64,000 bases of DNA from Cymodocea nodosa (Eukaryota > Streptophyta > Magnoliopsida > Alismatales > Cymodoceaceae): positions 5,476,001 to 5,540,000 of the forward strand of contig CM072335.1 of assembly GCA_036874045.1 (NCBI GenBank). The letters are read 5' to 3'. Each line of letters begins with the position of its first letter. Within the stretch, counting starts at the first letter, position 1. Below are positions 4,390 through 38,711 of the stretch, in pieces. Below the pieces are notes generated by a model, which was given only the letters and a program-made list of their open reading frames with translations, had not been told where the DNA came from and ran no database searches. The translations under genes and the position numbers were made by a program.

Positions 4390-4404
4390 AAATAGTGGTT
4401 CATG

Positions 4405-8298: not shown

Positions 8299-8316
8299 TG
8301 GCGTCGTTGCCAGGGA
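8299..8316 (+). other. Primer binding site (tRNA-Asp type)
   Basis: The 18 bases tggcgtcgttgccaggga differ at two positions, both transitions, from the tRNA-Asp complement used by Athila-type gypsy elements. It starts 7 bases after the end of the 5' LTR, as expected for the minus-strand primer site. Confidence 0.8.
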
Positions 8317-8696: not shown

Positions 8697-8750
8697 AACC
8701 TGGACAAACTAGAACACTTTATGTGTTAGCAACAAGAAGTCAACCAATTA

Positions 8751-11580: not shown

Positions 11581-11583
11581 TAA

Positions 11584-13082: not shown

Positions 13083-13129
13083 ACTCCACATAAAAAGATA
13101 AATATTATTGATGATGTTGTTCACCTCAT

Positions 13130-14190
13130 AGATATTATATACTTATTATAAATATCTAAAGTAATATCTAAACTACTGCTTAAGATACTATGTATTTATT
13201 GTAAAATCATAGTAGTATCTTATTGATTTTAAGTAGTTTATCAATTTTAATGGTTTTTACAATTTTAAATGGAAGTGTAAATGAAAAACATTAAATACTT
13301 CTGACATTCTAAAATTTTGATTAAATGTTTTCTTTGAATCAAGGAAAGTGCATATGATCATGCATAAATTTGACTTAATTGATTAAACTTGTAGAATAAG
13401 TTATATGTAACTCATCTTAAACTGTAAATTAAAAGTATAAGCTTATTGAAACTGATTCATATTCTAAGTAAAATTATAGAAGTAAAAATTGTATGAGATT
13501 TGTGTTTTATTGCATCTGTATTAATGAAATACATATATACTGTGCTTAAAATGAAAAGTGCTTACAAAGTGAAAATCTATGAGAGTTTATTGATCGATTT
13601 GATCACGAGCCTTTTGTACTTGAGCAGATAGGTATATAAGAATTGTTGTCCTGAAAAATGATTCTTTAAATCTGGCAACCTAAGGTCCTGATCAGATCTG
13701 GGATTGTTGACTAAAAGCTCATTACACAAGTACATTAGAAAGCTCTTATATGATTCAATCTTTTCAAACTAACTTTTAAAGAAAATTATCAATATTTACT
13801 ATTTTGAAGAAAAAAAAAATGTTGTATCATTAATTACAGATATCTTTGAATCACATATAGTTTCTACCAATATGGCTACTAAGTTATTGCATCAACATTA
13901 GTACTTTTGAAAACGTTTATTTGAGATACATTCTTTTATTCTCCTTGAATTAATCATATTGAGTTCAAAGTTGTGTTTTGATTCATATACAGTAGGAATG
14001 GATTCTTGAAATCATTTTTGATGAAGTCAAAATAACGGAAGTTTCTAAAAAGAAAATTTAAAAGTATAGTTATACTTAACATCTATTGTCACTACAAGTA
14101 TAGTTTGTATTTTGATTGAATATATTTGAAGTATATTTGTAGGGGGAGGATTACCAATGTTGAAAATAGATTAATATAATTCAGAATACA
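13130..14190 (+). other. 3' noncoding module shared with the gypsy element
   Basis: No coding sequence is seen, yet this stretch aligns for about 1 kb with 27760-28800 of the gypsy element. The best part is 13560-13790 against 28200-28430, including cagataggtat and gatcagatctgggattg in the same order and spacing. It contains gtagggggagga near 14140, resembling a polypurine tract. Homology of noncoding DNA between a copia and a gypsy element is not expected by descent; see findings. Confidence 0.7.
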
Positions 14191-14641
14191 AATCTTGGTT
14201 AATCTAAATTAATGTCCTCTTAAAATCTTGATGAAATAATTTAAAAAGACAAACAAACTATTTTAGATTCAAAGGACAAAAATGTTCGAATAGTTTAAAA
14301 TGTTCTCAAGATAATGTTAAGTTTAGCATGTGTGTTGTTTTCGGAACGTTTCAGTTGGAAGCATCCGAAAATTGTTTTAAGTGTACTAACTAGACGTTAT
14401 GTTAGATAAGGTAACGTGTAAAACTGCCTCTAGATAGCGTTTTACTCGTTAGGTTAGTTAACTCAATGAGTTATACTTGAATATTTCGGGTATCTTGATT
14501 GAATAAACTTTATTCAATATTATTTTTATATCTAAACCCAACTTCTCTTCAAGTTGAGTTATTCACCTAAAACCCTATTTAAACACTTATTACATAGGCA
14601 CTTAGGTTATTTGTAAACTTTGTCAAGAAAATATTTCCCGC
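14191..14641 (+). other. Noncoding part of the Sirevirus 3' region
   Basis: AT-rich DNA with isolated motifs of the hairpin family (tttcgga...tccgaaa near 14340-14370; gttagtt...gagtta near 14450). No reading frame of note. Confidence 0.45.
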
Positions 14642-16932
14642 TTGTTGCTGTTACAATTTGCGACAATAGTCTCCAAGTTCTACAAAGGTCATGGCAGAGG
14701 AAAAGGCAAAAGCAGAGGAGATGCAAAAGGAAAAGAAGTAGAAAATGATGAAGTTCCACGCACTTGGTTCAAAAAAATATTTCGAGTGGACAAAAGGTTA
14801 GTAGAAATTTATAGTGAATATTTCTTTCCTGAAGGTATACTGAATGAAGTTAGACAAAAACTCCAAAATACTGATGCAAATATTACATACATGGGTATTC
14901 GTAGTAAATTTGATAGAAATACAGAATGAAATGTGCTGAGATTGCATTTCTCAAGCAGTATTCAAATTATTTGGAAAAAGGTGTAGGTGCTTCAACTAGA
15001 ACTCCTCAAACACCAATAAATAGTACTAGACTACATGCATTTGAGGAAGAGCATGAATCAGCAATTCCTACCTCTTTATATTCAAAACAAGTAGAATCAA
15101 ATATTGTTGTAGACAAAACAAAAGTTGACTGTCTTCGAAAGGCAATTGCAATAGAAAGTATCTTTGAAGAATTAAAGCAGAAAACTTTTATAAAGCAATT
15201 TGAAAAGAAAACAGCAATACTTGAAGAGGAGAAACAGAAATGTTATAGTAGAAGGAAAGTTAGAAAAATTATGTCTAAGGAAACAAAGTCTATTGAAAAA
15301 GGAAAATCAAATGAAAATTTATTTCCAAAGGATAATGTATGTCTAGACATTGTACTTTATTATGCATCTGATAAACTCATCAGTTCCGAACACACTGAAA
15401 CTGATGAAGATAATGAGACTTTATTTTCCCTTGCTAGAAAGCTTGAGAAGAAATACAAGTCAAATATGAGCTCAAGTTTTTCTATTAGTACAAGTCTTGA
15501 TGATGCAGAAATTGACAAATCAAAGCATCAGGCACCTGACATTGAACAAGTTATTGCAGATATAAATGAAAATGTTGAGGCAGTAACTAGTTCACAGGCT
15601 GAATTGTCTAGAGTAGCAGATATTGAAAATGTTAAGACTCCAGAAGAGCTAAAAGTTAACCAGCCTTCTTCAGAATCTATAGAAACAACGTCTTAGAATT
15701 CACAACATATATCAATGGAGATATCTGTTGAACAAAATGAACAATTACAGACAAATACACCGGTTGTAGAATTTATGGAAAAATTGAACTCTAAAGATTC
15801 TATAGAGACTGAACAGATAAATGTTGAGCATATTGAAAATGTTCCTAACACTGTTGAAGCTGAAGAATCAAGCTTACTTGAGCAGCTTCAAAATAATATT
15901 TTGGAAGAGGAACAACATGACATTCATTTTGAAGAAGAGGTTCCTAAAGATGAATTAAACTCTGAATCATGGCTTCAGGTATCACCTTCTTTGTGTATAG
16001 TATTACCAATTCAAGGTAATTCAATTCTTTTTAGATTTGAAGAAGCATTGTAGAAATACAATAATCTGATTACATGTTAGATTCTGCATGCTCGTCCAAT
16101 AAAGTTCAGAAATTTGATGGAAATAAGAGATCTATTTGAGTTTCAAGGCCTCATTCAATTCTTGCCAGTTGGAACGAAATGGAAGCAATACACAGAGCTT
16201 ATTGCAACTTTTTATAACAATCTGGTCAAGAATGGAAATTTTCTAAAAACTCAAATAAATCAACATGAGTTTATATTGTCTCCTAAGTTAGTTTTTGAAG
16301 TTTTAGGATTAAAGAATGAAGGTGTTGTTGTTGCAAACAGATTTGACATGATTAGACAACTGGAATGGAACATTCAGTCTTTATCAAAAATTCCAGATGT
16401 ATATTCTGAAATGAGATTAATGGAAAATCTGAATGTAGAGGCAAGGTTTATTGCAAATATATTACATGCCAATTTATTTTAGAGAGTCAGACACAATATG
16501 GAAGTCAGCAGAAGTTGTTTATATGCAATTTATGGCCTGCTGAATAGAATTCAAATCAATTGGTTTGATGTTTTCACTTTTCAACTACAGCATATGAGTT
16601 CAAAGTTATTTTATGGTGATGCTGTATGTAGAATCCTTGCAAGACAATTGAATTTATCCGACTAGCCCTCTGAAACTAAAGGCAAGAGAGCATTTAGTGT
16701 CAAAGAGTTGCAAAAATTCCAAGTCTTGCATCAACCTCAACAACAACAACAACAATAACAACCTGATTATATAGACCATATACAACAACAAAGTTATTCA
16801 GTTCAAGCAGAACAGCAAACCCAGCTACCTCTTGACTTAGATGTAGTGCTTAACGACATCAGAAATGATATTAGGCATCTAGGAGATAAAATATGTAATG
16901 CTATTAGTGATATACTTAGGAGGGGTCAATAA
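14642..16932 (+). pseudogene. Sirevirus accessory (env-position) ORF, putative plant transposon protein type
   Basis: Four frames (14642-14929, 14926-15696, 15715-16053, 16114-16482) and an open tail to 16932 form one decayed protein of roughly 750 residues. The N-terminal part is charged (K/E-rich). The C-terminal domain has EIRDLFEFQGLIQFL, FYNNL, FEVLGLKNE, LLNRIQINWFDVF and KLFYGD, then FSVKELQKF and a glutamine-rich run. These align in order with 22800-23470 in the gypsy element and fit the plant transposon protein domain found with Athila elements. It sits 3' of pol, the env-like position of some Sireviruses. No signal peptide or membrane segment is obvious. Confidence 0.7.
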
Positions 16933-17411
16933 CTATTTTTATTTGTTTCTAAATACAAAATGTAATGTTTGTATTACTTGTTTGATTCATTGAACAATAC
17001 ATTTTTCTGTAAATGTGTTCAATTATTATTCTTGTTTATATAAAGAGTTTTTGTAAATATATCTCTTATATATATATATTCTCTGTAATTAACTTTTTGA
17101 TTAATGATAAAAAGGGAGAGAAATATTATAAAAAGATGATTATGATCTTAATTGCATATATATTATAAAAGGAGATGATATTTAAATGGTTATTATAATC
17201 TGACAGATGATAATTAGAAAATTGATACTTATATAATTATTGACATCTGAGAGTTTTAGTTATGAGATGTAAAATTTACGTAAACAATAGAAATAAGCTT
17301 AAGTGAACTTAAGTCAACAAACAAGTTTGTTGAATTAAAAGTTAACCCAACAAAGGTGCTTTGTTGAGTTAAACATATTTCATAATTGATTTAATATGGT
17401 TTTGTCATCAT
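16933..17411 (+). other. Sirevirus 3' untranslated region
   Basis: AT-rich noncoding DNA after the accessory ORF, with gttgaattaaaagttaacccaac-type arms near 17325-17370 belonging to the hairpin family. Nothing coding is seen. Confidence 0.5.
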
Positions 17412-17424
17412 CAAAAAGGGGGAG
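17412..17424 (+). other. Polypurine tract of the Sirevirus element
   Basis: The run caaaaagggggaga lies two bases before the 3' LTR start at 17427. Catcaaaaagggggagattg is the usual Sirevirus context for plus-strand priming. Confidence 0.85.
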
Positions 17425-17426
17425 AT

Positions 17427-19175
17427 TGTTGAGTATTTTGTTTTGATGATGTGTGCTGAATGAAAAATAATCATATTTACTCAATTACTATTGCTTGTGA
17501 AAAGAAATTAAAATCATCAATTAATACAGAAAAAGCTTACTGGCATAAATACTTGTCCGTATTGGATCTGAAGTTAATAACTAGTCGTTTCGTTGCATTA
17601 ATTTCTCATTTAACTAAACGTTAAGTTAACGTGTGTTTTTATTGAAAAGCATGATATGTTTTAAAGTTATATCTTCTATATCATGAACAGTGCACGTTTA
17701 GACAACTCGTTAAGTTAGAGTTTTGTTTGTATAGAGGTCATGTGAGAACTTGTTAAGTTAGAGGCTTAAAGGTTAAAATAGGTCACGTGATAACTCGTTA
17801 TGTTAGTGAGTAAAAGAAGAGATGAACTCATTAAGTTAGTGTTATATACGTGGTGAAATTATAAGTTACGAATGTTGTATTGTATCACATGAGGTGCACA
17901 TGTTTAACTCGTTAAGTTAACATAACTAAACACGTTGAGTTGTTATATTGAACACTAAGGCAATGCGTTAGGTTAGCGTTATAAACTTAAGTTGTCATTT
18001 TTGCACGTGGTAAAATTCTTATTATAAAAACATTTGTTTATTACTGAATCGGTGAGTTCAAGTTTTTTCGAAGACTTATAGTCGTAACTATCCGAAAGGT
18101 AACTTAAGTCATGTTTTCAGGTCTTGACACGTGTCTCACTAGTTTTATGGTATAAAGAGTTTTTCGGTGACTTACAACTGTAACTATTCGAAACTTAAAC
18201 TCTTTTCGGTGAATTATCGTTTAACCTTCCGAAAGAAAGGTTAAGCTAGTTCGTTGAGTTAGCAAAACACCATGGACTTAGTTCGTTGAGTTAGCTATAG
18301 TAATTGTCACGTGAAATGGCACATGAGGAACTCGTTAAGTTAGAAACGTTAAGTTATATATACTTGTGTTACTCGTTTAGTTAACATTAAAGTAAGGACT
18401 TATTATTACACTCGATGGAAAATTCTTGGGACGAGAAAGTTTATTTTCCAGGAAATCTTTCAGAGATCTAGGACTGATGATTAAAGAAAATTTGAAATAT
18501 AAACGTGGGTCAGAACGTGTGTGTTTCGATAAAGGAAAAAGCAAAGACGTGAAGAAGTGGAAAACTGGTAGTGATTAAATGTGGAGGATATGCATGAAGT
18601 TAACATATAGTATAAAAGGCACAGAATTCTTGTTGATCAAATTAATCCTTGCACACTAAACGAAAATCTTTTCAATGATCAAACTATCCCTACACACCAA
18701 AAGAAAAATCTTTTTCAAGGATTAAAAACACCTCTTCGGGAAAATCTCTCAGGTAGAAGAAAATTCAGTGAAGCAGAAAAGGTATTATTTATGTCACTGA
18801 AGATTTAAAGTATGAGAAGAAAGCAAATTCGGTGAAGCAGAGAAAGACAAGACATTTGTCACTAGAGAATTGCTAGAGAAGAAAAAGAAGAAGAAGAAAG
18901 ATCTCAAACAAGGAGAAATGTTTTAAATTTCGCAAATTAGTTTTCTCTGTTTGTAGTTATGAAATTGTTTAGATGATACATGGTATCGAGTTATAATTGC
19001 ATCTACAATTTCTAAGGAGAATTGAATTGTATATTGTAATTGAAACCTTGAATAAAAATGATTTTATGAAAATAATGTCTCGACTTGTTTTTGAGTTTTA
19101 AAGTTTCAATTATATTTTAGAAAATATTAAAAATACACAATTCACCCCCCTCTTGTGTAGTCATACAATCCTACA
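17427..19175 (+). repeat. Complete Sirevirus 3' LTR
   Basis: Runs from tgttgag to cctaca, 1749 bp. It ends with the pattern caattcacccccctcttgtg... that is typical of Sirevirus LTR ends. It contains the CACGTG boxes, ctcgttaagttag repeats, the tttcgg hairpin and the TATA box at 18611-18617 also seen in the truncated copies. Confidence 0.9.
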
Positions 19176-19180
19176 ATCAG

Positions 19181-20030
19181 GAAAAAATTAATTTAGAAAA
19201 TGATGATGTTCAATTAAGAGCTCTAGCTTCTGATGGGCAACATTTAGAATTGAAACATTTACCTCCTGAATTAACTTACATATTTCTAGTAGAGAAACGA
19301 ACCTGTCCAATCATTATTGCTTTAAATTTAAAAGAGGATCAAATAGCTAAATTAAAAGATGTAATAAAAAGTTATAAAGAAGCAATAGGATGGACTATGA
19401 CTGATATAAAAGGATTAAATTCAACTTTTTGTTGTCACCACATATATTTAGAAGAGAATGCTAAACCTGTTAGAATTCCTGAGAGGATATTAAATCCAAA
19501 CCTTAAAGAAGTAGTCAGGAAGGAAATAGTTAAATGGTTAGATAATGACATAATTTATCTGATTTCTGATAGCTCGTGGTTAGTCCAATCCATGTAGTTC
19601 CCAAGAAATCAGGATTAACAGTTATTAGGAATGAAAGTCAAGACTTGATACCTACTAGAATTCAATCAGGCTGGAGAGTATATATAGACTATAGAAAGCT
19701 GAATGCCATGACTAGGAAAGATCATTTTCCCTTACCTTTTATAGATCAAATGCTGGAAAGATTAGCAGGGCAAGAATATTTTTGTTTCCTAGATGGGTAT
19801 TCAGGGTATAATCAAATTCCAGTAGCATTAGAGGATCAACAGAAAACAACTTTCACCTGTCCTAATGGAACTTATGCTTTTAAGAGAATGCCATTCGGAT
19901 TATGCAATACGCCAGCTACCTTTCAAAGGTGTATGCAGGGCATATTTACTGGAATGACTGAAGATTTTTTAGAAATATTTATGGATGATTTTACTGTATA
20001 TGGCAACTCATATGAAGTCTGTTTAAAAAA
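19181..20030 (+). pseudogene. Gypsy reverse transcriptase
   Basis: Continues the gypsy polyprotein on the far side of the Sirevirus insertion. Two overlapping frames (19250-19597 and 19576 onward) show AIGWTMTDIKGL, VYIDYRKLNAMTRKDHFPLPFIDQMLERLAG, FLDGYSGYNQI, KRMPFGLCNTPATFQRCM and IFMDDFTVYG, the ordered RT blocks of Ty3/gypsy with the catalytic Asp pair. A frameshift lies near 19590. The domain ends shortly after the catalytic motif because of an internal deletion. Confidence 0.92.
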
Positions 20031-20816
20031 ATTTAGACCTAATATTAAAACGTTGTGTGGAAAAAATGAAATAACTAAAGCTATTATCAGTGATAGAGGA
20101 ACTCATTTCTGTAATAGAAGTTTTGAAGCCTTAATGAAGAAATATGAAGTAAACCACAAAATTGCAACATCATATCATCCGGAAACAAGTGGACAAGTAG
20201 AAAGTGCTAACAAACAAATTAAGTTAATCTTAGAAAAAGTAGTAAATCCTACTAGAACAGATTGGGCTAATAGATTGATAGATGCACTTTAGGCTTATAA
20301 AACTGCTTATAAAACGAGTTTAGGTATGTCACCTTTTAGGCTAGTATATGGAAAAGGTTATCATTTACCAGTTGAAATAGAACATAAAGCTTATTGGGCA
20401 TTAAAAACTCTGAACACTAATTCAAATCAAGCTGCTGAAAATAGAAAAATGTAATTAATTGAATTAGAAGAATTTAGAAATGAAGCTTATTCCAAGACTG
20501 TAAGAGAAAAAGAGAAAATGAAATTCTAGCATGATAAAAAAATTATTCTAAAAAGCTTTGAAATAGGACAAGAAGTATATCTTTATATGGCTACACTCCA
20601 TAACCATCTAGGAAAATTAAGATCTAGATGGGCAAGACCTTACATAGTTTTAAATATTTATCCTTATGGAACTATTGAAATTGAAAATCCAAAAAATTAG
20701 AATATATTTAAAGTAAATGGACAAAGACTTAAACCTATTCTGAAAATACCAAGAAGCTCCTTTGGAATTATAGAAGAAGTCAGAGTAGAAGACTACTCGA
20801 GCTTTACGTAGTAAGA
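20031..20816 (+). pseudogene. Gypsy integrase, C-terminal part, fused to RT by deletion
   Basis: Directly after the RT core the frame becomes integrase: ISDRGTHFC, then SYHPETSGQVESANKQIK, giving the second Asp and the Glu of the D-D-E triad. [15 protein letters not shown] and, after stops, KLRSRWARPYIVLNIYPYGTIEIENP follow, typical of the Athila C-terminus. RNase H, the zinc-binding domain and the first catalytic Asp are absent. The junction near 20030 keeps the frame open, so a fused RT-integrase frame of 238 codons exists (19576-20292). Confidence 0.88.
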
Positions 20817-21337: not shown

Positions 21338-23596
21338 GTGTTGTTGTGTAACTCCACGATGAGGAAGATGACATCCGAATTCTGGGAAGAGGCTGTTGAC
21401 ACATCAGAATTTCTGAAGGAATCAAAAGAATGGCACACGTGGCAGAAGATCAGAAATACGACTAGAGAGAAAGAGCTACAAAAGGTAGAATCGGAACTTT
21501 TCAATTTCAAAAGAGATTTAGTAGATTTGGGTATACAAATACCTCAAATAATGGAAACAAGAATAAAGGTTGCTACAAAAATGGCTGTAATCAAGGAAAG
21601 AAAAATAAGGCCAAGTAATGAAGTTGTCTTAGAATTAATCCAACGTAAGTCCCAACTCTGGTTCAAAAGATGAATCTGTAGATGAGCTAGATGGGCAATC
21701 TAGGAGCAAGAAAGGGAAGAAAATGAAGAAGAGGCAACTGAAGAACAGGAGGAACCAACTGCTGAAAGACCTGTTCCTGAGGAACAGCAGTCAGGACCTC
21801 TAGTTCAACCAACAGAGCCATTGCCCCGAGTAGCATTTGCTTGGTCGAGAACTGAAGAAGAAGAGAAAGAATTTACTAGCTTGGTCAAAACAGCAAGAGA
21901 CCAAGGTGATACTCAAGAAATAGCTACAGCTAATGCACATATTTTATATGATGCCATTAAGAAAAAAAGGGTCGAAGAAAAGTTGAGGGCCCAATATAGA
22001 ATTAAGGTTGAATAGCATCAGGCAACAGCTAAATCAAGTGCTGCAAGAGAAGTTGAGGTTGGTCCTTCAAGACTAGTAATTATAAAGAGAATTAAACAGG
22101 AAGAGTCAGTACCTGTAGCTTGCAGGCCTGCAAAGCCTACTTTTGTAAATTTAATTTCAGAAGAAGAAGAGGAAGAACAGGCACAATTAATCAGAAAAAG
22201 GAAAGGAAAAGAAAAAGTGTCTGAATATAGAGAAGAAATTAAATCTGAAGTACCAATTTTAATAGGGCCTGTGGAGCCAATATTTATAAACCTGCTATTC
22301 GATTCTGAGGAGGAGCAGGAGCTGCAGCAGCAAGAGCAAAGAGAAGAAGAAAAACATGCTGAAATTAGTCTGCAGCCTGTATAAGAAGAAAGAACAGAAA
22401 TTAGGGCAAAAACTGAATTGCCCGTGACTCCATCCCAATCTATTACAGAATCAGAAAGAATAGTGACAGAACTGATTGGTAGTCAGGAGGAAGAAGAAAG
22501 AGCAAAAAGTGAAGAGGCTGAAAGAAGCCATTTGGACAAAAATAACTTTACAGATTCCACTGAAGAGCAAGAAACTGTTCAGCAATTTATGGAGAGAATT
22601 CAAGACAAAGTGCAGAGTTCTACCGGCTCACCACCATAGACAAAAGCAAAAGCAAAAATTCAGGAATCTGTAGAGAATGTTCAAATGCAGCCTATAGAAG
22701 AGGAATATCAAGAACAAACCCCTCTAGAACAACAAAGTCACATTCCTGACCCGACTGAAACAATAGTTTTGAATGAAGTACATTTTTGGAGTCAGGAAGC
22801 TTATATCAAATATCAAGAAATTAGGGGTTACGATATTATTTACAGTAGACCAATAAATTAGGGTCGAATGCAAGAAATTAAAGATTTATTTGAATTCCAA
22901 GGTCTACTGAAGTTTATTTCTCAAGAAAGAGGGCATGCAGTATAAGAGAATCTAGTGCTCTATTTCTATGCAAATTTAAGAGAAGGAGAATGAGGATTAA
23001 TTTCCAACGTAGAGGAAGCAGATGTACAAATAACACCAGAGCTTCTCCACAACATTTTTGGATTAAAGAATGAAAGACTAAAAATTTTAGAAGACACAAC
23101 TGTAGTTGAGTGGACAGAACAGGAAATCAAAGATTGTTTAGCTATCAATCCTGGTGTGCCTTTATTAAACAAATTGAAGCATTTAAATGGTAAAGCACAC
23201 ATGGTAACTAACATTTTGATTAATAATGTCTATCAACGACAAGGCCATGACATAGAATTAAGTCAATTTGTCAAATGGGCCACGTTTGCAGTTATAAATA
23301 GGATTCAAATAAATTGGTCTGCAGTTTTTTTCTCCAAGCTGAAAACAGTAAAGAAGAAATTGTTTTATGGAGATTTGATTCCACTGTTGATGGTGGATTG
23401 TATTGATTTCACGAAATGGGCATCAAAAAGGATCAGATCAAGAACCATTTCAGTGAAAGAATACAGAAATTTTGTAGCTGCAGAGATTGTTGTAACTTCT
23501 AGAGGAATTACAAGAGCTATAGAAAGAATTAATCAATTAGAACTTCAGTTAGAAAAACTCCAGAAGGAAGTAGATGAACTTAGGAATAGAGATTAA
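21338..23596 (+). pseudogene. Gypsy accessory ORF, putative plant transposon protein type
   Basis: A decayed protein of roughly 750 residues in frames 21338-21673, 21821-22015, 22418-22639 and 23156-23596, with stops between. The middle is extremely Glu/Gln-rich. The C-terminal domain (22800-23500) reads EIKDLFEFQGLLKFI, LYFYANL, LLHNIFGLKNE, HLNGKAHMVTNILINNV, AVINRIQINWSAVFF, KLFYGD and ISVKEYRNF, then ends in a predicted coiled coil (INQLELQLEKLQKEVDELRN). The pattern fits the plant transposon protein domain. It matches the Sirevirus ORF at 14642-16932 block by block. Its function is unknown. Confidence 0.72.
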
Positions 23597-24699
23597 ATTG
23601 TATTGTTCACCTACTTGTATAAAATTGTATGAAAATGTCTGATGTATTTGTACTGTAAATTGATTCATATTAATGAATATAATTTTTCAGAGATACTTTT
23701 CATACGTGTTTTGAATGTGAAATGAATGGAATTTATTGAATGATATATATATTTTGTGGAACTTTATGAATGAATGTTTAACAGATTTACAATTTGTTGA
23801 ATGATAGGATAAATGCTTAAAAATTTCTGCATGTTGCAAGGTAAAATGTAAATTATGCATAACATAAAATGACCTGCAAGTTAAATCTTTTTATAATGTT
23901 CAGATTTAAATGAATTTTGATTAGAATGATGCATTAATGACATAGATTTAACTTTATTTCAATTAGCAGAATGAAAAAGAAAAAAAGCAGAGAGGAACTT
24001 ACGAGGAGTAAATCTTAGAGGTTGCTAAGTGTTAACTCAACGAAGTAAGTTCGTTGAGTTAAACGTAACTCCACGAGGTCAGTAATATAATATAAGGTCA
24101 CTCCGTTGAGTTATCTGTAACTCAACGAAGTTAGTCCGTGGAGTTAGCAACAGTAACCGACTGTGTTCTGTTGAGTTATCTGTAACTCAACGAGGTTAGT
24201 TCGTGGATTAAGCAGAACAGTTATTCTTTTAACCACGAATGAAAATTTGTCAGTTTAGCGGTTACCAAAATTTGAAATTAATAGTGGTACACGTACCCAT
24301 AAAAACAGGAATCACGATGCACGTTGCAAGACACGTTCTTGCAACGAGATTTATTCACTTTATGGATGTGCAGTATATATATATAACAGAATGTTATTTA
24401 CGAGTTACCAACACTTTTAAAACAAAGGAGAATGCGCTGAAGGAACTGGAAGGAGAAGTAGCTGATTCAACTTCATCCGACAACAAATATTTATTGAATG
24501 GAAAGCTTTAGACTGGTATGTAATTAATCTTCTGCTATTTATTTATGAGCACATGGACCCGTTCTCTAAGCACTAAATGATTAGTAAGAACACCTACCTA
24601 GGAATTTTCATCGTAGAGGAGTACTGAAAAATTTTCTGAATTGAACTTTAACGAAATTCTTTGGGTGTAGCTAACCTTTCTTTAAAAGAGAATGTAGAA
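23597..24699 (+). other. Gypsy spacer with perfect hairpins and a leader-like segment
   Basis: AT-rich DNA containing two perfect hairpins: 24103-24126 (10-bp stem cgttgagtta, loop tctg) and 24169-24190 (9-bp stem gttgagtta, loop tctg). A third, imperfect one lies near 24047-24072. After a run of tatatatataa at about 24374 there is a short open frame (24239-24511) that I do not recognise. The segment immediately precedes a gag capsid region, so it could be a second leader. Confidence 0.5.
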
Positions 24700-25885
24700 A
24701 TGGCTGCTCCAATAGAAAAACCATTAGGAGAAATTTTGTATCCTGAATTAGTTGATGAACATTCATGTATTCAATTGCCAAACTTTGAGGGAGATAGGTT
24801 TGAACTGAAATCTAATTATATTAGTTAATTGCCACATTTTCATGGATTAGAAAGAGAGGATGCCTATTATTTCCTTAGAGAATTTAACGAAGTTTGTCAA
24901 ATGATGAAAATGCCGAATATGAGTATAGATGCTATTAAACTTAGATATATCCCTTTTTCTTTAAAAGACAGCTAAGAGATGATTATATACTCTATCGCCT
25001 GATTCAATTTCTACATGGACTGAATTTTGCTCTGTTTTTCTAGAAAAATATTATCCAACACATCAAACGATTAAAAAGAAAAAAGAAATATTAATGTGGC
25101 GCAAAAACAGGGTGAATCATTTTCGAAATATTTTGAAAGATTTAAAGATTTACTGACTCAATGTCCACATCATGCAATGAGTAAGGCACAATTAATAGGT
25201 ATAATTTATAAAGGCATAGATGTTTCAACAAAATCTTTATTAGAATCTACTTGTCAAAATGAATTTTTAAAGTTATGTAGTGAAGAAGCATGGGCATATT
25301 TAGAAAACTTTGCAAAAAGAACTGCACAATGGGAAAACTTGGCTGAAGCTATTACAAATAAAAAATATTGCCAAGAGGAATGCATGAAATAGATTCAAGT
25401 ACTATGTTTGAGGTGAAATTAACTGAATTAACAAAGAAAATAGAAGAGTAATCATTAAATCAAAAGCTAGCAAAAAAGAATGCAAACATAAATGATTTAG
25501 ATATTATTTATGCTAGAAACCAGAGAGATAACTTGGGAAATTCTTATAATCCTAATTGGAGAAATCACCCGAATTTATCTTGGAGAAACAACAATTTCTA
25601 AGGAGGAGAAAATGTAAATGAGAAGAATATAAGTTATGAATCATTACTGGAATAAGGATCTAGAATAGAGAAATTAGAAAAGATAATCCAACAATTAAAC
25701 AATCGTCTAGATTTTGTATTTGGAAATGCTGCAATTCAAAATCAGAATAGAAATATACCACTTAGACAGAAGGAACCAATGGAAGTTAGACCTACTAGAG
25801 GATTGCCAATACAAGCAATACCTAATCCTGTCAATAGAACTGTTAATGAAATTGATACCTCTTCTAGGAGGGTAGCTGAATGAAG
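24700..25885 (+). pseudogene. Gypsy gag capsid segment in an unusual 3' position
   Basis: Translations in shifting frames give PHFHGLEREDAYYFLREFNEVC, YIPFSLKD, PDSISTWTEFCSVFLEKYYP, then the frame 25096-25392 with GESFSKYFERFKDLLTQCPHH, LIGIIYKGID and EEAWAYLENFAKRTAQWE, and later YNPNWRNHPNLSW. This is the retrotransposon gag capsid pattern of Athila-type elements and normally lies just after the 5' LTR. Here it lies 3' of pol and the accessory ORF. At least three frameshifts and several stops occur. No zinc knuckle is present in this copy. Confidence 0.82.
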
Positions 25886-26038
25886 CAGCATATCTGAAGC
25901 AACTATCTATATATATATATGTTTTTATTTATAGTTAATAGTATCGTTGAGTTATGCCATAACTCCACGAGGGTGTGTAGTAGTTATGTTAATTTTTGTC
26001 TCTGCTAAATTTTTGTTTGTGTTATACAGAATTGACAA

Positions 26039-27175
26039 ATGCAATTGATGCAATTACCGTTGGATGCACTAAGGGAAGTACTAAGTAATTTATTAGCTAA
26101 AGATCTATGTAGACTGTGTTGTGTATCAAAAGAAATTAAAGACTATATTGAAGAAAAATATTTTCAAGGACTACAAGCTGCAAAAATGACTAAGATTAGA
26201 GATGGATTCATATGGAGGTCATTTAATCATAGTTCAATTAACCATGAATATCTTGCTATGGAAGAAACTACTGTAATTCCACCCAATACATTAGAAGGAA
26301 TAGATCATATTATAGGGATAGATGAAGGATTAATCATATATAGGACGAGACCAAGGTATGGAAGTTTATTACTTGATATTTTGATAAGAAATCCTATAAC
26401 AAGAGAATAATGGAATATAGGAAGACCTAATAGATATGAAGTACCAACTATAAATTGTCGGTCAGCTTTAATATTTTTTGATAAAAATTCTGCAATTCCT
26501 GAAAAATTATATTATTGGAGACCTACAGGAAATTGGGGTGAAGATTTACGCTTAAGTGTGTATAATTTTCTGAATAGATCTTGGAATGAAAATATTATGA
26601 TATATCTAGGACGGAAATCATTAATTTACCAAACACATGTCATACTTGATGGATATATATATCTAGTCACAGATATATCAATAGCATTTGGATCTGATTT
26701 ATACATAGTGAGCATAGACAGTTATGATGAATTTATAGAAATTTCACCTATACCAAGAGAAATAGCTAAACCACCATTTGTAGAATTTAATAAAATTCAA
26801 ATAGGAATGTGGTATAATGAAGATGATGATCCTACTTTATGTCTGATAAGATGGTGGGATGAACTGATGAAATTTCAAATATGGATTATAAAAGACATAA
26901 ATGAATGGAAGTGGGAAGAGGAATATATTGAAATAGATGTAGAAATAGAAATTGCTACATTACTCTGGAACCAAAAAGGATCCCTTTCTGCATTTCATAT
27001 CATTAATGGTAATATACTTGTATTTGGAATTTATAATATATTACACGTTTACAAATTAAGAAGGAACAAGAACTGCATTAAAACAGAATTGATAGCAAGA
27101 AGAACTATGCCTAAAAAGTTTGCTTGGACTGATACATTTATTCCATTTGTTCCTACTTTTCAATCATGTTCTTAA
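26039..27175 (+). pseudogene. F-box protein reading frame carried by the gypsy element
   Basis: Near-complete 378-codon frame with one in-frame stop (taa at 26408-26410). Residues 5-42 form an F-box (LPLDALREVLSNLLAKDLCRL, then CVSKEIKDYI), the motif that binds SKP1 in SCF ubiquitin ligases. The rest looks like an F-box-associated domain: NPITRE followed by WNIGRP, then GYIYLV, DLYIVSID, LCLIRWWDELMKFQIWIIKD, WEEEYIEID, ILVFG. An F-box protein would present a target for ubiquitination. It lies on the element's coding strand between gag and the 3' module, and is far less decayed than adjacent gag. It could be a captured host gene or an older element gene; the target is unknown. Confidence 0.75.
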
Positions 27176-27699: not shown

Positions 27700-28914
27700 A
27701 ACTTGTTGTAACTATCCGATAATTGAGATTGTAAAATTTTTATAATCTGTAACTGCTTGAATGTTATATTTAGAAAGCTATATAAGATGCTATAGAATTT
27801 ACTATTTATGCAAATCTAGATATAGTATCTTATGTTTTTTCTCAATTTCATGAGTTTAATAATTTCACGATTTTAAAATGAAATCAGAATGCTTAATGAA
27901 AACTCAGTAAATTATCTGAAGTCCTGAAGGAGCTGAGATGTGAATTCTAGATTAAATGAAACACATATGATTAAAGATACATTTAATTTGACTGATTGAA
28001 CTTGTAGAATGATTTATGTGTAGATCTTATTAAACTACAGAAAAAGTATGAGCTTATTGTTATGGATTCATATTTACAATAAATGATAGAAGTAGGACTA
28101 TATGAGATTGGTAATTACTACATCTGTATTAATGAAATACGTACATATACGTTATGTGATTAATGCTTTGTTTTGTGTGTATTTGATTGAGAAAAAGAAA
28201 GAAAAAAAAAAGAAAAAAAATTGAGAGTTTATTGACTTGTTTGATCATGAGACTTTTATACTTGAGCAGATAGGTATGTAAGGATTGTTGACCTAAAAAA
28301 GGACTCTTGAAATTTGGCAACCTAAGATCCTGATCAGATCTGGGATTGTTGACTGAAAGCTCGTTACATGGGTACATTAGAAAGCTCTTGTATGATTTAA
28401 GCTTGTCAAGTTAACTTTTAAAGTACAAAAACAAAAAAAAAGGAAAAAAAATATACATATACTGTTTTGAAAAGATACAAGTGTTTTGTGAAATACAGAT
28501 ATCTTATGAATCGAGTATATTTTCTGTTATCTAAAATTGCTGTAATATGAATCTAGAATTGACTTTTGAAGTTGTTTAATAGAGATACAATTCTTTATTC
28601 TACTTGTCTTAATCATATTGAATTGGATTGTACTTTGATTTGTATGTAGTTGAAATTTCTTCTAGAAATCTTATTAGAAAATTCAAGATGGTAGATGATG
28701 AAAAAAAGAACAAACGATAATATAATTAACACATATGTGATGATGATATACTTTGTATGTAATTTACATATATTCTAAGTATATTTGCAGGTTGATTACT
28801 GAAAAATACATAATATATATTTTTATGCTGAACAAAAAAAAAAAGAATTAATTCTAGCACTTTTTGAAAGACCAATTAATTAGATCTTAGTTTGCTAAGG
28901 GACTAGTAAAATTT
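27700..28914 (+). other. 3' noncoding module of the gypsy element, shared with the Sirevirus
   Basis: No gene is seen. The stretch aligns in order with 13130-14190 of the Sirevirus element. The region around 28240-28400 is strongly conserved (tgatcatgag, cagataggtat, gatcctgatcagatctgggattg, cattagaaagctctt). Simple A-rich runs at 28185-28220 and 28430-28450 are insertions relative to the Sirevirus copy. Confidence 0.7.
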
Positions 28915-28928
28915 AGGTATGGGGGAAG
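28915..28928 (+). other. Polypurine tract of the gypsy element
   Basis: The run aggtatgggggaag directly precedes the 3' LTR start tgtttagaatg at 28929, the expected position for plus-strand priming. Confidence 0.75.
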
Positions 28929-30959
28929 TGTTTAGAATGAAAAAGTGCATATTATTAACGGTTAAATGATGGTTAATTGCATAATATTTAGCTTATCATA
29001 TGAGAATTAAGTCATTATGTTATAATTGCACTGTTATATGCTTTAATTAAAGAATCTGCTTAATTTTGGGGAATTAATGTTAATTTAGTACATTTCTCAA
29101 CTGTCGTTAAGTTGTAGGCTGTGAAATTCATAAGTATCCGAATTTTCTTATATTTCGAACAGTTATGTTTAACAGACCGAACATGTCGAATAGTTATGTT
29201 TAAACTATCGAGCAGTTATGTTTTGAAAGAATATTTTATAATTTCCTGAAGTACACGTGTCAAAACCATAATGCATGACTTAAGTGAACTTTCGGTGAGT
29301 TATCTATAACTATCCGAAATTGCAGCTGGGCATCAAACAGTTATATGTGTAACTCTCCGAAATATCTTTTTATTTATAAAATAGTTGTGGACACGTGTCA
29401 TTTCTAGTAAAGTGACTTAAGTGGATTTTCGATGAGTTATCTGTAACTATCCGAAATGCATCTAAGCATTGAATAGTTAAGTTTGTAAGTATCCGAAATG
29501 CACCTGAGTATCGGATAGTTAAATTTATGCACGTGTTTTATAGTTAAATCAACGAAGAAAGTCCGTTGAGTTATCTGTAACTCCATGGACTATTTATTTT
29601 CTAATATGCCATTGTAGCAGTTGTAGAAACAGGACAGTTGGAAGAAAAACCACGACTGCACGTATCATGCAGAGAGAAGAAAGCATCGTCGTTGATATGA
29701 ATGAAGGAAATCTAACCGACCATTCAAGCAAAAGCAGTTACTACTAAAGAAATATAAAAGAAAAGAAGAAAAAGAAGAAAAGTGTGTGATCGATGGACGG
29801 CCAGTGTATACAGAGCAGGAGCACCAAGTTCTCTGTAGGCAGTATCGACAATTCTCCAAAATACCACACCAACCATTGTTACCACCACCACAATCACCAA
29901 CCATCGGAGGTCTATGAGAATACTTTCTTGATGTCGGGTCGATTCGAAGCCAAACACAGTGCTTGACAACCACTGTGAGGAGTGATCGCGTCACGGGAAG
30001 GGAAGCCATTTTCACCAAGCACTGACTCATATTTCAGGAAATCATAAAGCTTTTAGCCTTGGCTTTGGGTTGATGCCTGTATGTTGAAGAGGAGATCATC
30101 TTGCAATTCTAGACTCGCGATTCTATAGGGAGAGGAGACAGAATTGTAAGTGGTTTAATTTTCAGTGGTGTAATCACATTGCAAATAGTGATGGAAGTAT
30201 TTACTGTCGAGTGAGATTACTTTGCATTTCACCTTTCGCCCATTTCCATGTTCATATTAAAACAAGAATACCAAAAACAATTTATCTGTGTTTGTATGTC
30301 GTATTTGAGTGTTGTATTGTTTGTGTTGTATCGTGATTAATATTATCTTTGTTAGTGTTGTGATTGTTTTATGTTTATTTTAGTTTTACAGTTTACTGAA
30401 ATTGGTTCATTCAAAAGACTTAAAGATTTTAATGGTTAATGTTTGAATTATCTGAATGTTAGTATGCTTAATGATAAATTTAGTGTTTACTAACATTAAA
30501 GAGCTTAATTGATGTTATTTACAATCTGTGGAATCGCCCAATGGTTGGCCGAATTCCTCTATAAATAGCAATATTTAAAAAGAAAAGACAGGCTCGTGGA
30601 GTTAACTTAAGTCCACGAGTTTAGTCTGTTGAGTTAGCCATAACTCAACGAACTTTGTCTGTTGAGTTAACTATAATTCAACGGAGGGCTTATTGAATAT
30701 ATAAATTTGATTGTTAACAAACGAACAGTTCTCAGTTCTTAAGCAATTCCTTGTGGGATCGACCTGTACTTGCACACTAATACAATAGACATTGTACACT
30801 TGCAGTTAAAGTACAAATTGGAATTAATATCTAAATTGTATTAAAGGTTGTTTGTTTACTTCTAAAAGAAAAAGAATAGGCATAAAGCTAAATTAACTAA
30901 GTAAAAATAGAAGTAACAAATCAAAGTTTTTCTGGTGTTGTGCTGGAAAAATCCAAACA
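28929..30959 (+). repeat. Gypsy 3' LTR
   Basis: Begins tgtttagaatgaaaaagtgc and ends aaaaatccaaaca, 2031 bp, one base different in length from the 5' copy. The hairpin at 29290-29319 corresponds to that at 6621-6650. The end is followed by the TSD tttgc and then copia gag. Confidence 0.92.
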
Positions 30960-30964
30960 TTTGC

Positions 30965-31279
30965 TTTATTATATTTTTCCTTCAAAGTGTTCCATAGTGT
31001 ATAAGCATTAGTATATGTTTCATAGCATTTTACTAGACAATCTTCCATGAACATGAACATTAAATTTTTCACCTTTTTATCATCTTTCCTCCATTGATTT
31101 ACTCTTTTAATTTCCACTTCAAAAGCGTTTTCATCTATTTCCGGAGGATGCGAACCTATTACATGCTCAAGATTTTCATACTCTAATGCTTGATTTATTT
31201 TCCAATACCACATCTCATAATTTACCCCATTTAATTTATACATCTTTGCCAACTCAGTTGTAAACATCTTTGAAGCCAT
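30965..31279 (-). pseudogene. Copia gag, N-terminal part
   Basis: From an ATG at 31279 the minus strand reads MASKMFTTELAKMYKLNG, then NYEMWYWKINQALE and AYTLWNTLKEKYNKA, the N-terminal gag domain of plant copia elements (substrate-binding-like gag, UBN2 family). I prefer this start to the one at 31303 because gag of this type usually begins a few residues before the LNG-x-NY motif. The gypsy insertion cuts the frame at 30964; it continues at 6254. Confidence 0.85.
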
Positions 31280-31599
31280 ACTTATATCTATAATTGAAAT
31301 CACTTTCCAATTTCAACAAACAATTACCTTTGAACAAAAATGCAAGTATCAAATTTAAATTTTCAAATTTCAAAATTCAAATTACAAATATTTCTATTAT
31401 TTAATTAAAGCATGTAATTTCTAAACATGTAATTTATGATGACTTGCAAAAAATTAACAATTTGAAAAATGAAATTGCATGATTTTTTTTTAAAATTTTT
31501 TCAATATAATATTTTATATTATATCATGTATATTATTAGAGGGATGTCGAGAGAAAGAAAAATCTCTAACCAATCGCCCGATGGTAGAAGACTAGTGAT
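31280..31599 (-). other. Copia leader, AT-rich part
   Basis: AT-rich untranslated DNA between gag and the GC-rich repeat block. No reading frame or signal is seen. Confidence 0.5.
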
Positions 31600-33969: not shown

Positions 33970-35506
33970 TTAGAGTGAAGGATATACGTTGCCTTTAGTA
34001 AGGCCATGGACATTCTTACAAATAGACTTGGCATTGCCGCGTCCAGAGTACCTCAGGTTGATGTTCTTCAACTCAATATATTTGCACGGCACCGATCCGC
34101 TGCACTTGAGAGTCACTGCTAGGGGCGTACTTGAGGTTCCTCGAATGTTTCTAAACTTGATGTTGCTTATCTTGACCTTAGATGGAGGCTGCAAGCGATC
34201 ATAAGATTCCATATCAGTTTGAAATATTAATTGTACGTAATTAATATATAGAGAGATACGATGGTTGATGGTTGATGGTCGATGGTGGTGGTATACGTGC
34301 GTACGTACCAGTGAACCACAGCGGCCACTTGGACAGTACTCCTGATCGATGATGATGGGGTTGCCAACCTTGTACATGACAATGTTGTCGAAGGTGAAGT
34401 TCCTGGCAGAGAGTTGTTTCGAGTTCTCCCAAGTCTTTATCCGAACACCATTCATCGTCCCGGAGAGAGTGCAGTCCTTGACGTACAGGTTGGAGACGTC
34501 CTTCTCCCAGCCATACCTGCCGAGACTTCCGACGCTGATGCCGTGCCCGGGGCCGCAGTGCACACCTTTGACGGTAATGTCTGAATTGGAGGGTCCGATG
34601 GAGATGCAGTCGTCACCAGTACCGATGTGGGAATGTGAGATCGTTACGTGGTTCGACAGCCCGACGTGGATGCCGTCGGTGTTGGGGCTGTTCTCCGGCG
34701 CCTTGACGGTGATGGACTGAATAAGTAAATTGTTGCATCTGTACACCATGATGTGGAACATCTTGCTGTTCAGCGACTTGATGCCTTCCACCACGGAGTT
34801 ATCCACGGAACTGAATTGTATGGACTACGTAGTACAAAACCAAATATATGAAAAGGATAAATATCAATTACTTGTAGTAGTAGTTGTTGTCGTTGAATAT
34901 TTAAATAAAACGAGGATCAATGTAATGTATAGCCTTTGGATTTCATCACGTACCGTGGGAAGGGCCTTGCAATGCTTAGACCTGCGGCATTTGTTGTGTG
35001 ACCACGCGCTCTGGCCCCTACCGTCGAACGTGCCCTGACCGGTGAGCTTGAAACCATCGAGGTACTGGAAAACGATCCAATTTATGCCTGAGAACTTGTT
35101 GAGATCGTCGGGCGCACGGATTGTCCCGGACACTTGGAACACCATTCGGCCCTTGCATGGGCCTAGAAAACTCACGACGCCCAGGCCGAAGACCCCGTTC
35201 GGAACCACCACCACATTAGTTCCTCGACTGTCGCATGCTGCCGCCCACGCCTTCAGAAAAGCCTACAACAACAACAACGATAATGCCAGAGCCAGTTCGG
35301 GTCTATATATATATATTTCTTTCAGACTGGGTATGGGGATGGACGAAGCGCGTGTTGCATGTGTTGTGCTGCACCTGTTTGTTGTCGACATTTCCCTTCG
35401 CCCTGGCGCCAAAATTTACGACGTTGAAAGTACTCGATGTGACGGACGCGACGGAGATGGCGAAGAGGAGGAGGACCAAGGGAGAAGCCGTACGAATTGC
35501 AGCCAT
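33970..35506 (-). CDS. Exopolygalacturonase-like glycoside hydrolase family 28
   Basis: Four exons by GT-AG sites: 35506-35375, 35262-34954, 34824-34309, 34188-33970, all phase 0, giving 391 residues, the usual length for plant exopolygalacturonases. The enzyme removes galacturonic acid from pectin in the cell wall. Residues 1-25 form a signal peptide (ASPLVLLLFAISVASVTSS), so it should be secreted. Catalytic motifs are complete: NTDG (195-198), GTGDDCISIG with Asp 218-219, GPGHGIS with His 241, and RIK (275-277). NPIIIDQEYCP and conserved cysteines fit the pollen exo-type clade. The start chosen is the ATG just before the signal peptide. The gene appears intact. Confidence 0.93.
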
Positions 35507-36086: not shown

Positions 36087-37349
36087 TCACCGCCGGCCAC
36101 CACCCATCCCCGATTCCTCCGACTTCTTCGCCTCAAGTTCCAACTCCTTCTGACTCACCTCCATCAGCATCCGCTCGTTCTCCAACGCCATCCTCTCGTT
36201 GTCCAGTCTCATCCTCTCCAGTTCCCTGTCCTTGCTACTGCAGAACCTCTGCCATTTGAACCTCCGCTTCTCCAGCTCCAACGCTCCCGTTTGGATCTCC
36301 ACCATCTCCTCCTCGAATTGCACACCCCGTTTCATCAACCAGTCCCGTTGCGTATCCTGAAGCAGCACTCCAGCTATCTCCAGCTGCAAACTTTCATGAC
36401 CCGCTTTCTCCGATTCAATGTTCTTCGCACCTTCCGTACCCATCTTCTCCTCCCCATCCACCTCCTCCTCGTCCTCTTCCTCCTTGATCTTAATCCCATC
36501 AGCGTCCTTCGGAACGGTCGCAGGACGACCAGCCGTCAACTCTGCTTCACATGAACTGGGTATCCTCGGGCCATTATGGTAGGCGCACATCTCCCTGTAA
36601 AACAAGTGCTTGGAGCTGAGGATCTTCCTCGCCACATCCTTGGCCTTGGACGACACGTTCATGGAATCGAGCAGGGAAGGATTCTCCACAACCTGGCATG
36701 TGGTTCCACGGCCGAAGATGTCATTGAGCCTCTTGTACCTCTTGTTGAGATCGTTGAACTTGTCCTCGCACTGCTGCGGCGAGACGTAGCATCCCTTCTC
36801 CAGCATCATCTTCGACACAGTCTTCCACTTCCCCTTCTTCTGCAGCGCGCCACCGCCGGACTTCCGTTTCGCCCCCACCGGCCCATCATCGCACATCTCT
36901 GCCGCACCATCATCCCCAACACAAGCAACGGAAGAGATAAGGAGCCGGACCATCTCGTCCGTCCACTTCATCCGATGCCAAGGCGAGGACGAGGACGAGG
37001 ACGAGGAGGAGCCGCCCTTCTTGCCTCGGACGCCGCCGACATCATCCTCATTGGCGATGCCTGGGTCGGGGTCGTCGTCCTCGTCGCTGACGGGGGATGA
37101 AGCTAGCTTCCCCCGCTGGTACTGGAAGGTGGCTGCGGGCATGGAAGGAGGTGGGCTGAATAGGTACATGGGATGGTCGGAACTGAGTGCCATAGCCGGA
37201 TGCAGGTGGTTGGATTGTTGATGTTGATGGTGGTGGTTCAGGGAGAGGGGAGTCATGGACGGCTGGTGGAGGTGGATAGTGGAGTCGAGGTCGAGAATCC
37301 CAGCCGTTGAGCCTGGAAGTAGACCGCCGCGCATCACCGAATTGTCCAT
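36087..37349 (-). CDS. Trihelix transcription factor, probably GT-gamma clade
   Basis: Single-exon frame of 420 residues. Residues 126-230 form a trihelix (Myb/SANT-like) DNA-binding domain: WHRMKWTDEMVRLLI, KGKWKTVSKMMLEKGC, then QQCEDKFNDLNKRYKRLND, with the third helix typical of the family. A basic patch KRKSGGG...KKGKWK (161-176) could be a nuclear signal. The N-terminus is His/Gln- and Ser-rich with an acidic run (89-103). An acidic stretch (EEEDEEEVDGEE) precedes a long charged C-terminal helix or coiled coil (about 345-412). The architecture resembles the Arabidopsis group that includes HRA1. It should bind GT-type promoter elements in the nucleus. It looks intact. Confidence 0.85.
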   Translation of the reverse strand: MDNSVMRGGLLPGSTAGILDLDSTIHLHQPSMTPLSLNHHHQHQQSNHLHPAMALSSDHPMYLFSPPPSMPAATFQYQRGKLASSPVSDEDDDPDPGIANEDDVGGVRGKKGGSSSSSSSSSPWHRMKWTDEMVRLLISSVACVGDDGAAEMCDDGPVGAKRKSGGGALQKKGKWKTVSKMMLEKGCYVSPQQCEDKFNDLNKRYKRLNDIFGRGTTCQVVENPSLLDSMNVSSKAKDVARKILSSKHLFYREMCAYHNGPRIPSSCEAELTAGRPATVPKDADGIKIKEEEDEEEVDGEEKMGTEGAKNIESEKAGHESLQLEIAGVLLQDTQRDWLMKRGVQFEEEMVEIQTGALELEKRRFKWQRFCSSKDRELERMRLDNERMALENERMLMEVSQKELELEAKKSEESGMGGGRR

Positions 37350-38711
37350 AATTGGAAGCTCAGCTAGGAGGATCAGGCTCTGGTTAATGCATCTCCCTGG
37401 CGAGCGCTGGACAAATCGGAGTCCGGAGAAGCACCTAATGCCCAGATCGGATAGGAAGGTGGAGAGGTGGAATCGATGGAAAAGGAGGAATCTTGACGAA
37501 GGAATTGGTGAGATTTGGTAGATATCTGCAAGTATGTTGCGGTCGTCGGAGGTGAGAAAGGGGAAGAACCGATGAGGTTGGATACTTCCGCGTTGCTTTA
37601 GGCTTTAGCACAGGTTTTTGGCACACATGATGGAAATATCAAATATTTGTGCCGGGTTACAATTCAGTTTTTTCTTCTTTTTTTTACAACCGTAGTGGTG
37701 AAAGTTAGGTTTTTAAAAATAATAATGCATTTGTGCATTTATTAAAAATATTTTAAATTTTAATAAATATCATGAGTCAACTCAATTAAGTTACTGCAAT
37801 TTATTTACTTAACATGTGTTGGTTACTTTCTACGTTTTGTAGGCGTTCAAGTTACCAACTGCCCTAGTCATTAGCGCGATCACTACTCGGGTCAGATCTT
37901 TCGGGTACCGTACTCTGGTTGGTTAGGCTGGAATGAATTTAGCGCCCTTGGAGGGATCCGGGATCATGTGCGGGGTCACCGGATCCGTAAACGGGAAGAT
38001 CCGGTAAAGTCAACAGGATCGTTGCGATGGAGACAACCGGCGGGAAGGGTGTATTAAATCCCAAGGAGCCAGACAGAGGAATATTAATTGGCACCTTTCG
38101 TTAATTTAATTTGTACGTTCGTTTCAATAGGAAAATGTTGCCCTTATTTTGGGCTTTAGTTTAGAATGTCTTGCAAGCTCAGCAGATTATTGGGAAATTC
38201 AAAAGTAGAAGTTGACACGTTCTCCTTGATGGACCTTGATCGGGTTTCAGACGTGAGTCTAGCAACTATATATTTATGATTTCCTATTTATTTCTACGTC
38301 CGGACAAGACGACACAAACGATTGTTGCTAACAGACAATGGTATAATTAGTTCCTACACCAGCATTACTTCGTTCTTATAACATTAACAATATCATAAAT
38401 AAACGAAATTAGTGTTGCTCAAAAAGTTAGTGTATTGCAATTGAAGGACCATTACTAATTAAACTTCAATAGCATGAACTCCCACCTATATTAAACAAGA
38501 CATGGAACAAGTGAAATATCATCGTATTAGAGATAAGTCAAAACAGAAATAAAATCTGCCAAGTTGAACAGTCACCAAGGTCTAACAAAGGAGGATGGAT
38601 GACATTTAACTATACAAGTGTATCCAAATGATAATAAAAAAAATCTCTCCAACTTGAACGTCGCTGGTTCGAAAAACAGCAGGTACGTGTCTAAAGAAAA
38701 AAGGCATTTGA
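37350..38711. other. Intergenic DNA between trihelix gene and copper ATPase
   Basis: 37350-37620 probably holds the trihelix leader and promoter. 37840-38060 is GC-richer, with repeated ggatcc/gatccgg words, and unrecognised. The rest is AT-rich. No gene or RNA is seen. Confidence 0.4.

Follow-up and report, generated by a model that had tools for sequence, protein, structure and literature searches.

What is an F-box gene doing inside an LTR retrotransposon of Cymodocea nodosa? By binding SKP1, F-box proteins deliver their targets to cullin ligases. The window, the whole 64,000-nucleotide stretch analyzed here (contig CM072335.1, positions 5,476,001 to 5,540,000), holds a Ty3/gypsy element in which a frame for such a protein lies between gag and the 3′ LTR. 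The gene could be a passenger copied once from the host, an independent gene that landed in the element, or a resident gene of the element family, serving the element itself or directed against the host.

The Carrier Element

The carrier has the paired LTRs, target duplicates, primer-binding site and PPT of an LTR retrotransposon, all read on the plus strand. The 5′ LTR (6260–8291), whose start was placed by comparing both LTRs, is 94.0% identical over 2030 bases to positions 28931–30959 of the 3′ LTR (28929–30959). Over 2034 aligned sites the two differ by 121 substitutions, of which 108 are transitions, and K2P is 0.063. The 5-bp target duplicates, GTTGC and TTTGC (30960–30964), differ at one of five bases. 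A primer-binding site at 8299–8316 shows 2 mismatches in 18 to the complement of an 18-mer that we take to be the plant tRNA-Asp 3′ end, a match that 0 of 2000 shuffles reach, and a purine-rich, PPT-like stretch read from the sequence adjoins the 3′ LTR at 28912–28928. When the element is removed, a minus-strand copia gag frame with one stop spans the insertion junction. The insertion site is an older minus-strand copia element (2861–6238 and 30893–31312), its gag split by the gypsy insertion.

Within the LTRs, a 5′ ORF (8370–10094, 4 stops) encodes a CCHC zinc knuckle (8469), a coiled region and an aspartic protease (PF13650, E 9.5e-5, just under its cutoff). The CCHC pattern is the sole one on the plus strand of the window element, and a Pfam search of this ORF found no capsid or gag domain. 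A nested Ty1/copia element (about 10095–18907, plus strand, LTR pair 93.6%) follows; it is a later arrival outside the family. At 10095–12116 its 5′ LTR is directly followed by a second, partial LTR copy (11580–12116, about 95% identity). The 5′ part of reverse transcriptase (19180–20040; PF00078, E 3.6e-24) is fused by an internal deletion to the C-terminal part of integrase (20041–20800; PF00665, E 4.5e-4, under its cutoff). Because of the nested copia element and this deletion, the window copy is a broken one. Farther downstream lie an env-like or putative plant transposon ORF, the aORF (21338–23596; PF20167, E 1.9e-5, under cutoff; 9 stops), gag for the capsid (24703–25883; PF03732 in two pieces, E 8.1e-8 and 9.3e-4), and the F-box frame. 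The env-like ORFs of the copia (16081–16479) and gypsy (22943–23593) elements look related, with 24% identity over 94 aa (E 1e-7, a single comparison).

No recognized gene was found in the 1.75-kb stretch between the F-box gene and the 3′ LTR. It contains a noncoding spacer (27964–28791, plus strand) of about 70% identity to the spacer at 13351–14143 of the nested copia element. The spacer common to the two elements is about 830 nt long, with a 213-nt core at 85% identity; both versions end in AG, a possible splice acceptor, and RNA folds of the shared core gave z values of −0.89 and −1.84, with no clear structure. The element order is 5′ LTR, NC-PR-RT-RNaseH-IN, env-like ORF, gag, F-box, 3′ LTR.

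The Ty3/gypsy domain order is seen in the pol of locus L021 (PF13650, PF00078 and PF17919, then PF17917, PF17921 and PF00665), which retains RT-RNaseH-IN as two frames split by a stop. We regard the family as Athila-like, a placement made on its features. A tRNA-Asp primer site and one RNase H are Athila traits. The primer site is present here, with the two mismatches noted above, and a scan of the L021 pol at E up to 0.1 detected the RNase H linked to RT and no second one of the Tat/Ogre kind. Gag is not upstream of pol, as it is in Athila. PF03078 (Athila ORF-1) is absent from the aORF of the window copy, which has the subthreshold PF20167 match instead, and the L021 aORF matches neither; in the part of the source covered, PF03078 is reported in 16% of Athila elements and is hence not obligatory (PMC6317226).

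Elsewhere in the window, likely host genes occupy the minus strand at 33970–35262, 36087–37604 and 38712–53053. They comprise a polygalacturonase-like gene named from its ORF, a gene for a Myb_DNA-bind_4 (trihelix-like) protein, and a heavy-metal ATPase gene with long introns, in which the HMA domain lies in one exon and the rest was named from ORFs. The segment 40001–42000, between ATPase exons, has a very low GC content (0.235) and a strong GC skew (−0.515). A tandem array of four copies of a 252-bp unit, with 99% matches, spans 57858–58874. Rfam (gathering) and tRNA scans of the window found nothing.

The F-Box Frame and Its Protein Class

The F-box frame occupies 26039–27175 on the plus strand, with 378 codons plus a stop and a single internal TAA at codon 124 (26408–26410). 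Its N-terminal 123 aa match PF00646 at E 1e-8 and 35.2 bits, well above the Pfam cutoff of 20.5, which places the product among the F-box proteins. The first-pass annotation had described just such a frame, with one stop and an N-terminal F-box, after gag and inside both LTRs of a gypsy element, and had named the lack of a significant F-box profile match as one outcome that would refute it; the frame and its place are confirmed, and the match is significant. Related frames exist at other loci. PF00646 is found in 9 of 9 members of an alignment of these copies (A2; best E 5.8e-11) and also in L028, in a scan of the places other than L002b, L011b and the L020 piece.

The C-terminal half is less clear. 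The earlier description of it as F-box-associated in type is weakly supported: in a scan at E up to 1, FBA_1 was found in 4 of 9 copies (best E 0.0016) and FBA_3 in one (E 0.79), but the C-terminal half of the window frame has no Pfam match, and no FBA domain was found in L029 or L028 at E up to 0.1. A single-sequence fold, with the stop read as alanine, has a pLDDT of 34, too low to lean on. It places helices at residues 8–47 and mostly strands past residue 88, with a helix at 166–178 and a short one at 122–125. An F-box joined to a beta-rich binding half would suit this fold, at a confidence too low to argue from. Solved structures gave no match to the A2 profile, and two weak, unrelated matches to the N-terminal piece.

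The first-pass annotation had also contrasted the single stop of this frame with the many lesions of gag. Against gag the contrast holds, since gag has 5 stops and 3 frameshifts and the F-box frame 1 stop and no frameshift. Against all other ORFs of the window element it is not significant: these have 22 stops in 2247 codons, or 3.7 expected in 378, and the probability of one or fewer is 0.116. A neutral-decay simulation from the LTR divergence gives 1.6–2.8 expected stops. The contrast was thus overstated. The GC3 of the F-box frame is 0.18, versus 0.20–0.28 in the element's other ORFs. Codon usage was considered as proof of long residence and set aside as weak, because the host HMA gene (in a set containing 3 stops from exon edges) also scores as element-like.

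Copies at Other Loci

Other copies were sought in 27 10-kb stretches of the source genome picked blind to content. One (L001) lies at a contig end and the other 26 at round coordinates in the inner parts of large contigs; this sample is not random along the chromosomes, so no copy number follows from it. Targeted stretches were L021, picked since it adjoins L008, together with L029, L030 (the rest of one L002 copy) and L031 (beside L020). F-box relatives were detected by tblastn in 9 of the 27 blind stretches: at two places each in L002 and L011, in L004, L008, L009, L017, L027 and L028, and as a short piece in L020, with no further F-box in L031 beside it. No relatives were found in viral contigs.

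The place of the gene is fixed. At all 11 visible gag 3′ ends (10 at these loci, plus that of the window), the F-box frame follows gag on the same strand after a gap of 155–240 nt. At the second L011 place the gag match stops 22 bases short of the gag end, and in L017 the F-box frame adjoins a copia LTR, with no gag visible. The adjoining stretches L021 and L008 form a second complete copy, with the same gene order between two LTRs (the 5′ LTR cut by the stretch end) and no nested element. The order F-box, noncoding stretch, 3′ LTR is also seen in line in L004 plus L032 and in L027. The same F-box between the LTRs of other family members, proposed as a check in the first-pass annotation, is therefore found.

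Selection and Decay

The alignments cover all places except the short L020 piece. In the F-box tree, five places (L011 twice, L017, L002a and L028) split from the other seven with support 1.000, and the gag and F-box trees group largely the same copies. Between the two groups, NG86 distances are dN 0.126 and dS 0.325. With within-group means subtracted, the net dN/dS is 0.281 (bootstrap over codons, 0.185–0.444). Neutral simulations under six settings of 1000 pairs each, in which the null evolves a pair and not the whole tree, gave medians of 0.72–1.16, with no value at or below 0.281 in any setting. This comparison, also among the proposed checks, thus places the divergence between subfamilies below all neutral simulations. 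When 12 single between-group pairs are set against a separate set of nulls, all 12 fall below the 1% point of the strictest (0.504), all but one below that of the middle null (0.472) and 9 below that of the mildest (0.398); the three pairs that stay within the neutral range of one setting all involve L017. The within-group dN/dS is 0.60 and 0.51, near the neutral pair medians of that separate set (0.60–0.85).

Codon positions and indels were also compared. Net divergence at codon positions 1, 2 and 3 is 0.081, 0.046 and 0.119, and fourfold sites (71 in the single pair for which they were counted) give 0.153; within groups the positions differ little (0.064, 0.074 and 0.075 in one, 0.120, 0.103 and 0.087 in the other). 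The F-box frame carries 1.10 indels per kb, and 11 of 15 are multiples of three; the 3′ flank has 13.55 per kb, of which 39 of 305 are such multiples. Gag has 3.69 per kb (15 of 44) and the stretch before it 9.04 per kb (27 of 85); these counts are not independent, as pairs share copies. The net dN/dS of gag, calculated with L010 omitted, is 0.123, with a smaller group of two copies only. The net all-site K2P is 0.088 for the F-box frame, 0.134 for the stretch before gag and, once gapped sites are left out, 0.094 for the noncoding 3′ flank. Plain identity by itself would therefore reveal no selection, the F-box being hardly more conserved than the noncoding flank. The net dN of 0.055 gives a ratio near 0.6 against the 3′ flank and near 0.4 against the stretch before gag, and the net dS of 0.196 exceeds both noncoding K2P figures.

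Most copies are decayed. The frame is intact at 1 of 12 aligned places (L029), some of which are cut short; the other 11 have 1 to 7 stops each, and three of these also have a frameshift. Most stops (21 of 29) replace what is usually a tryptophan codon in the other copies, which is what decay through cytosine deamination would be expected to produce. Some recur across copies, such as that at codon 310 in four copies of two subfamilies, which may reflect recurrent mutation or inheritance, the two being indistinguishable here. It may be that F-box-defective copies spread with help in trans, or that mutation repeatedly hits those codons. Every gag copy is broken, with at least one stop in 10 of 10, and most members would therefore depend on others.

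Such a pattern is that of a gene under selection during replication of the family, with moderate constraint, that decays once a copy has inserted. Because of its fixed place after gag, low net dN/dS and few indels, the F-box is a resident gene of the element family, selected in the past, and not a one-off capture.

Displaced Gag and Possible Modes of Expression

The family's gag is itself displaced, to a place behind pol and the env-like ORF. It follows the aORF in the window, at L004, L009, L011, L027 and L028, and in the L021–L008 copy, at coordinates 5879–7063 in L004, 9790–8606 in L008, 1590–2774 in L027 and 6019–4834 in L028, with PF03732 at E 3e-18 in L004 and 4.6e-19 in L027. In the window copy, the capsid is encoded downstream of pol and the env-like ORF, while the CCHC pattern stays with the protease in the 5′ ORF; at the three loci matching the 5′ ORF (L020, L021 and L024), no gag match was seen. 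Among the literature matches listed, none reports gag behind an env-like ORF.

This arrangement raises a second question, that of how capsid and F-box genes located behind pol are expressed; from their place in the 3′ half, both would require splicing or internal initiation of their mRNAs. A motif search for the palindromic GTTGAGTTA-N-TAACTC found 11 matches at 8 places in the window, with 0 expected, all within the gypsy element. The sites, at 6897, 21152, 24053–24191, 25946, 29565 and 30628, are distributed over the two LTRs and the regions preceding the env-like ORF, gag and the F-box; those at 24053–24191 (plus strand) are the ones upstream of gag. The motif before the F-box (25946–25965, plus strand) starts 93 nt upstream of the ATG. 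Of 9 other copies, 4 have it exactly and 7 have a looser version of it. Just upstream of the F-box ATG, 6 of 8 copies listed have an AG that follows a pyrimidine-rich run; L004 and the intact L029 lack it. The motif and the AG are only hints of possible internal starts or splicing.

Proposed Origin and Role of the F-Box Gene

Our analysis allows us to propose a role for this gene. We consider it likely that this is a many-copy Athila-like Ty3/gypsy family whose extra gene, selected and derived from the host, encodes an SKP1-binding F-box receptor that degrades a target to the element's benefit. A host F-box gene would have been acquired and then kept. Its product, a putative SCF substrate receptor to judge from its domain, would bind host SKP1 via the F-box, and the C-terminal half would carry a target to the cullin ubiquitin ligase. 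The protein degraded, to the element's benefit, could come from the host, as a restriction or silencing factor, or be encoded by the element itself. As a tentative extension, the family's SCF receptor may remove a host silencing or restriction factor, with gag moved to a separately expressed 3′ gene, in a strategy like that of Vif or P0.

It is also possible, though doubtful, that the resident gene serves the element itself and is not directed against host defense, for example by adjusting how much Gag, integrase or env-like protein is present. The location of the F-box directly after gag at every visible gag 3′ end and the largely shared grouping of the two trees are consistent with such a role, but a C-terminal target-binding half would suit either kind of target.

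A frame selected only in the distant past and now drifting, or kept mainly as a spacer or RNA signal, appears unlikely. It would account for the near-neutral dN/dS and small codon-position differences within subfamilies, for the 11 of 12 broken places, and for an all-site divergence close to that of the noncoding flank. However, it fits less well with indels that are few and mostly multiples of three, the low net dN/dS on the deep branch, and the one intact copy.

Maize Bs1 took up host gene pieces. It is very improbable that this one element likewise copied a host F-box mRNA by template switching and carries it as a passenger: fragments of host genes are described in LTR elements, in one or a few copies, in the parts of two reports covered here (PMC7264820, PMC13317346), but this gene occurs in a third of the blind stretches and in two subfamilies, and net dN/dS across the subfamily split is low. 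Insertion of an independent F-box gene or retrocopy after integration, which the first-pass annotation had named as an outcome that would overturn its reading, is scarcely credible, since the A-rich run about 80 nt past the stop (27253) that might suggest it is matched by such runs at 12 places in 6201–31000, the frame has no flanks or target duplicate of its own (the longest word common to both sides is 9 nt, within the range typical of shuffles), and the sequence on both sides of it aligns in L004, L008, L027 and L029.

Comparison with Known Systems

A resident gene of the element family, of clear biochemical class and bearing marks of past selection, opens a direct way into the question of how host proteins may be affected by a many-copy element. 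In the portions of the literature covered, the additions described for plant LTR elements include extra ORFs that are env-like or antisense, transduction of the Bs1 type, and, in orchid elements, an ORF of AlkB type. The tRNA-Asp-like primer site and single RNase H are shared with Athila. Athila-type elements with a third, env-like ORF, as described in the passages covered, are also similar in having an extra ORF between pol and the 3′ LTR, and recombination between families is reported for them (PMC2410132, PMC6317226). Here, in contrast, gag lies 3′ of the env-like ORF, the aORF has no PF03078 match, and an F-box gene follows gag.

The Phalaenopsis element Gypsy_Pa_2799, which carries an ORF for an AlkB-type m6A demethylase, is likewise a large Ty3/gypsy family that has kept, through several rounds of replication, a gene of host type in an extra ORF; it differs, in the part of the report covered, in the gene itself, its dual RNase H and its Gag-Pol in one ORF (PMC9289625). 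According to the same portion of text, extra genes of plant LTR elements mostly lack known domains, and the domains named there for the 121 angiosperm genomes screened in 2022 are PMD, G-patch, AIR1, B3, ArgoL2 and others, with no F-box (PMC9289625). In Thlaspi arvense, the F-box-family gene TaChr6G576 is listed as an "LTR-gene" and tied to an LTR retrotransposon, but it appears in the passages covered among genes expanded by retroduplication and tandem duplication and not as a family-wide element gene (PMC8764390). Among the literature matches listed, in a search whose scope did not extend to supplements and most subscription papers, none describes an LTR family with a resident F-box gene.

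Polerovirus P0 and lentiviral Vif and Vpr are examples in which a mobile genome equips a host cullin ligase with a substrate receptor or adaptor. The element's F-box protein would be comparable to them in supplying such a receptor, with SKP1 binding and target both putative. If that target is a silencing factor, the gene would represent a transposon-encoded counter-defense that uses host ubiquitination.
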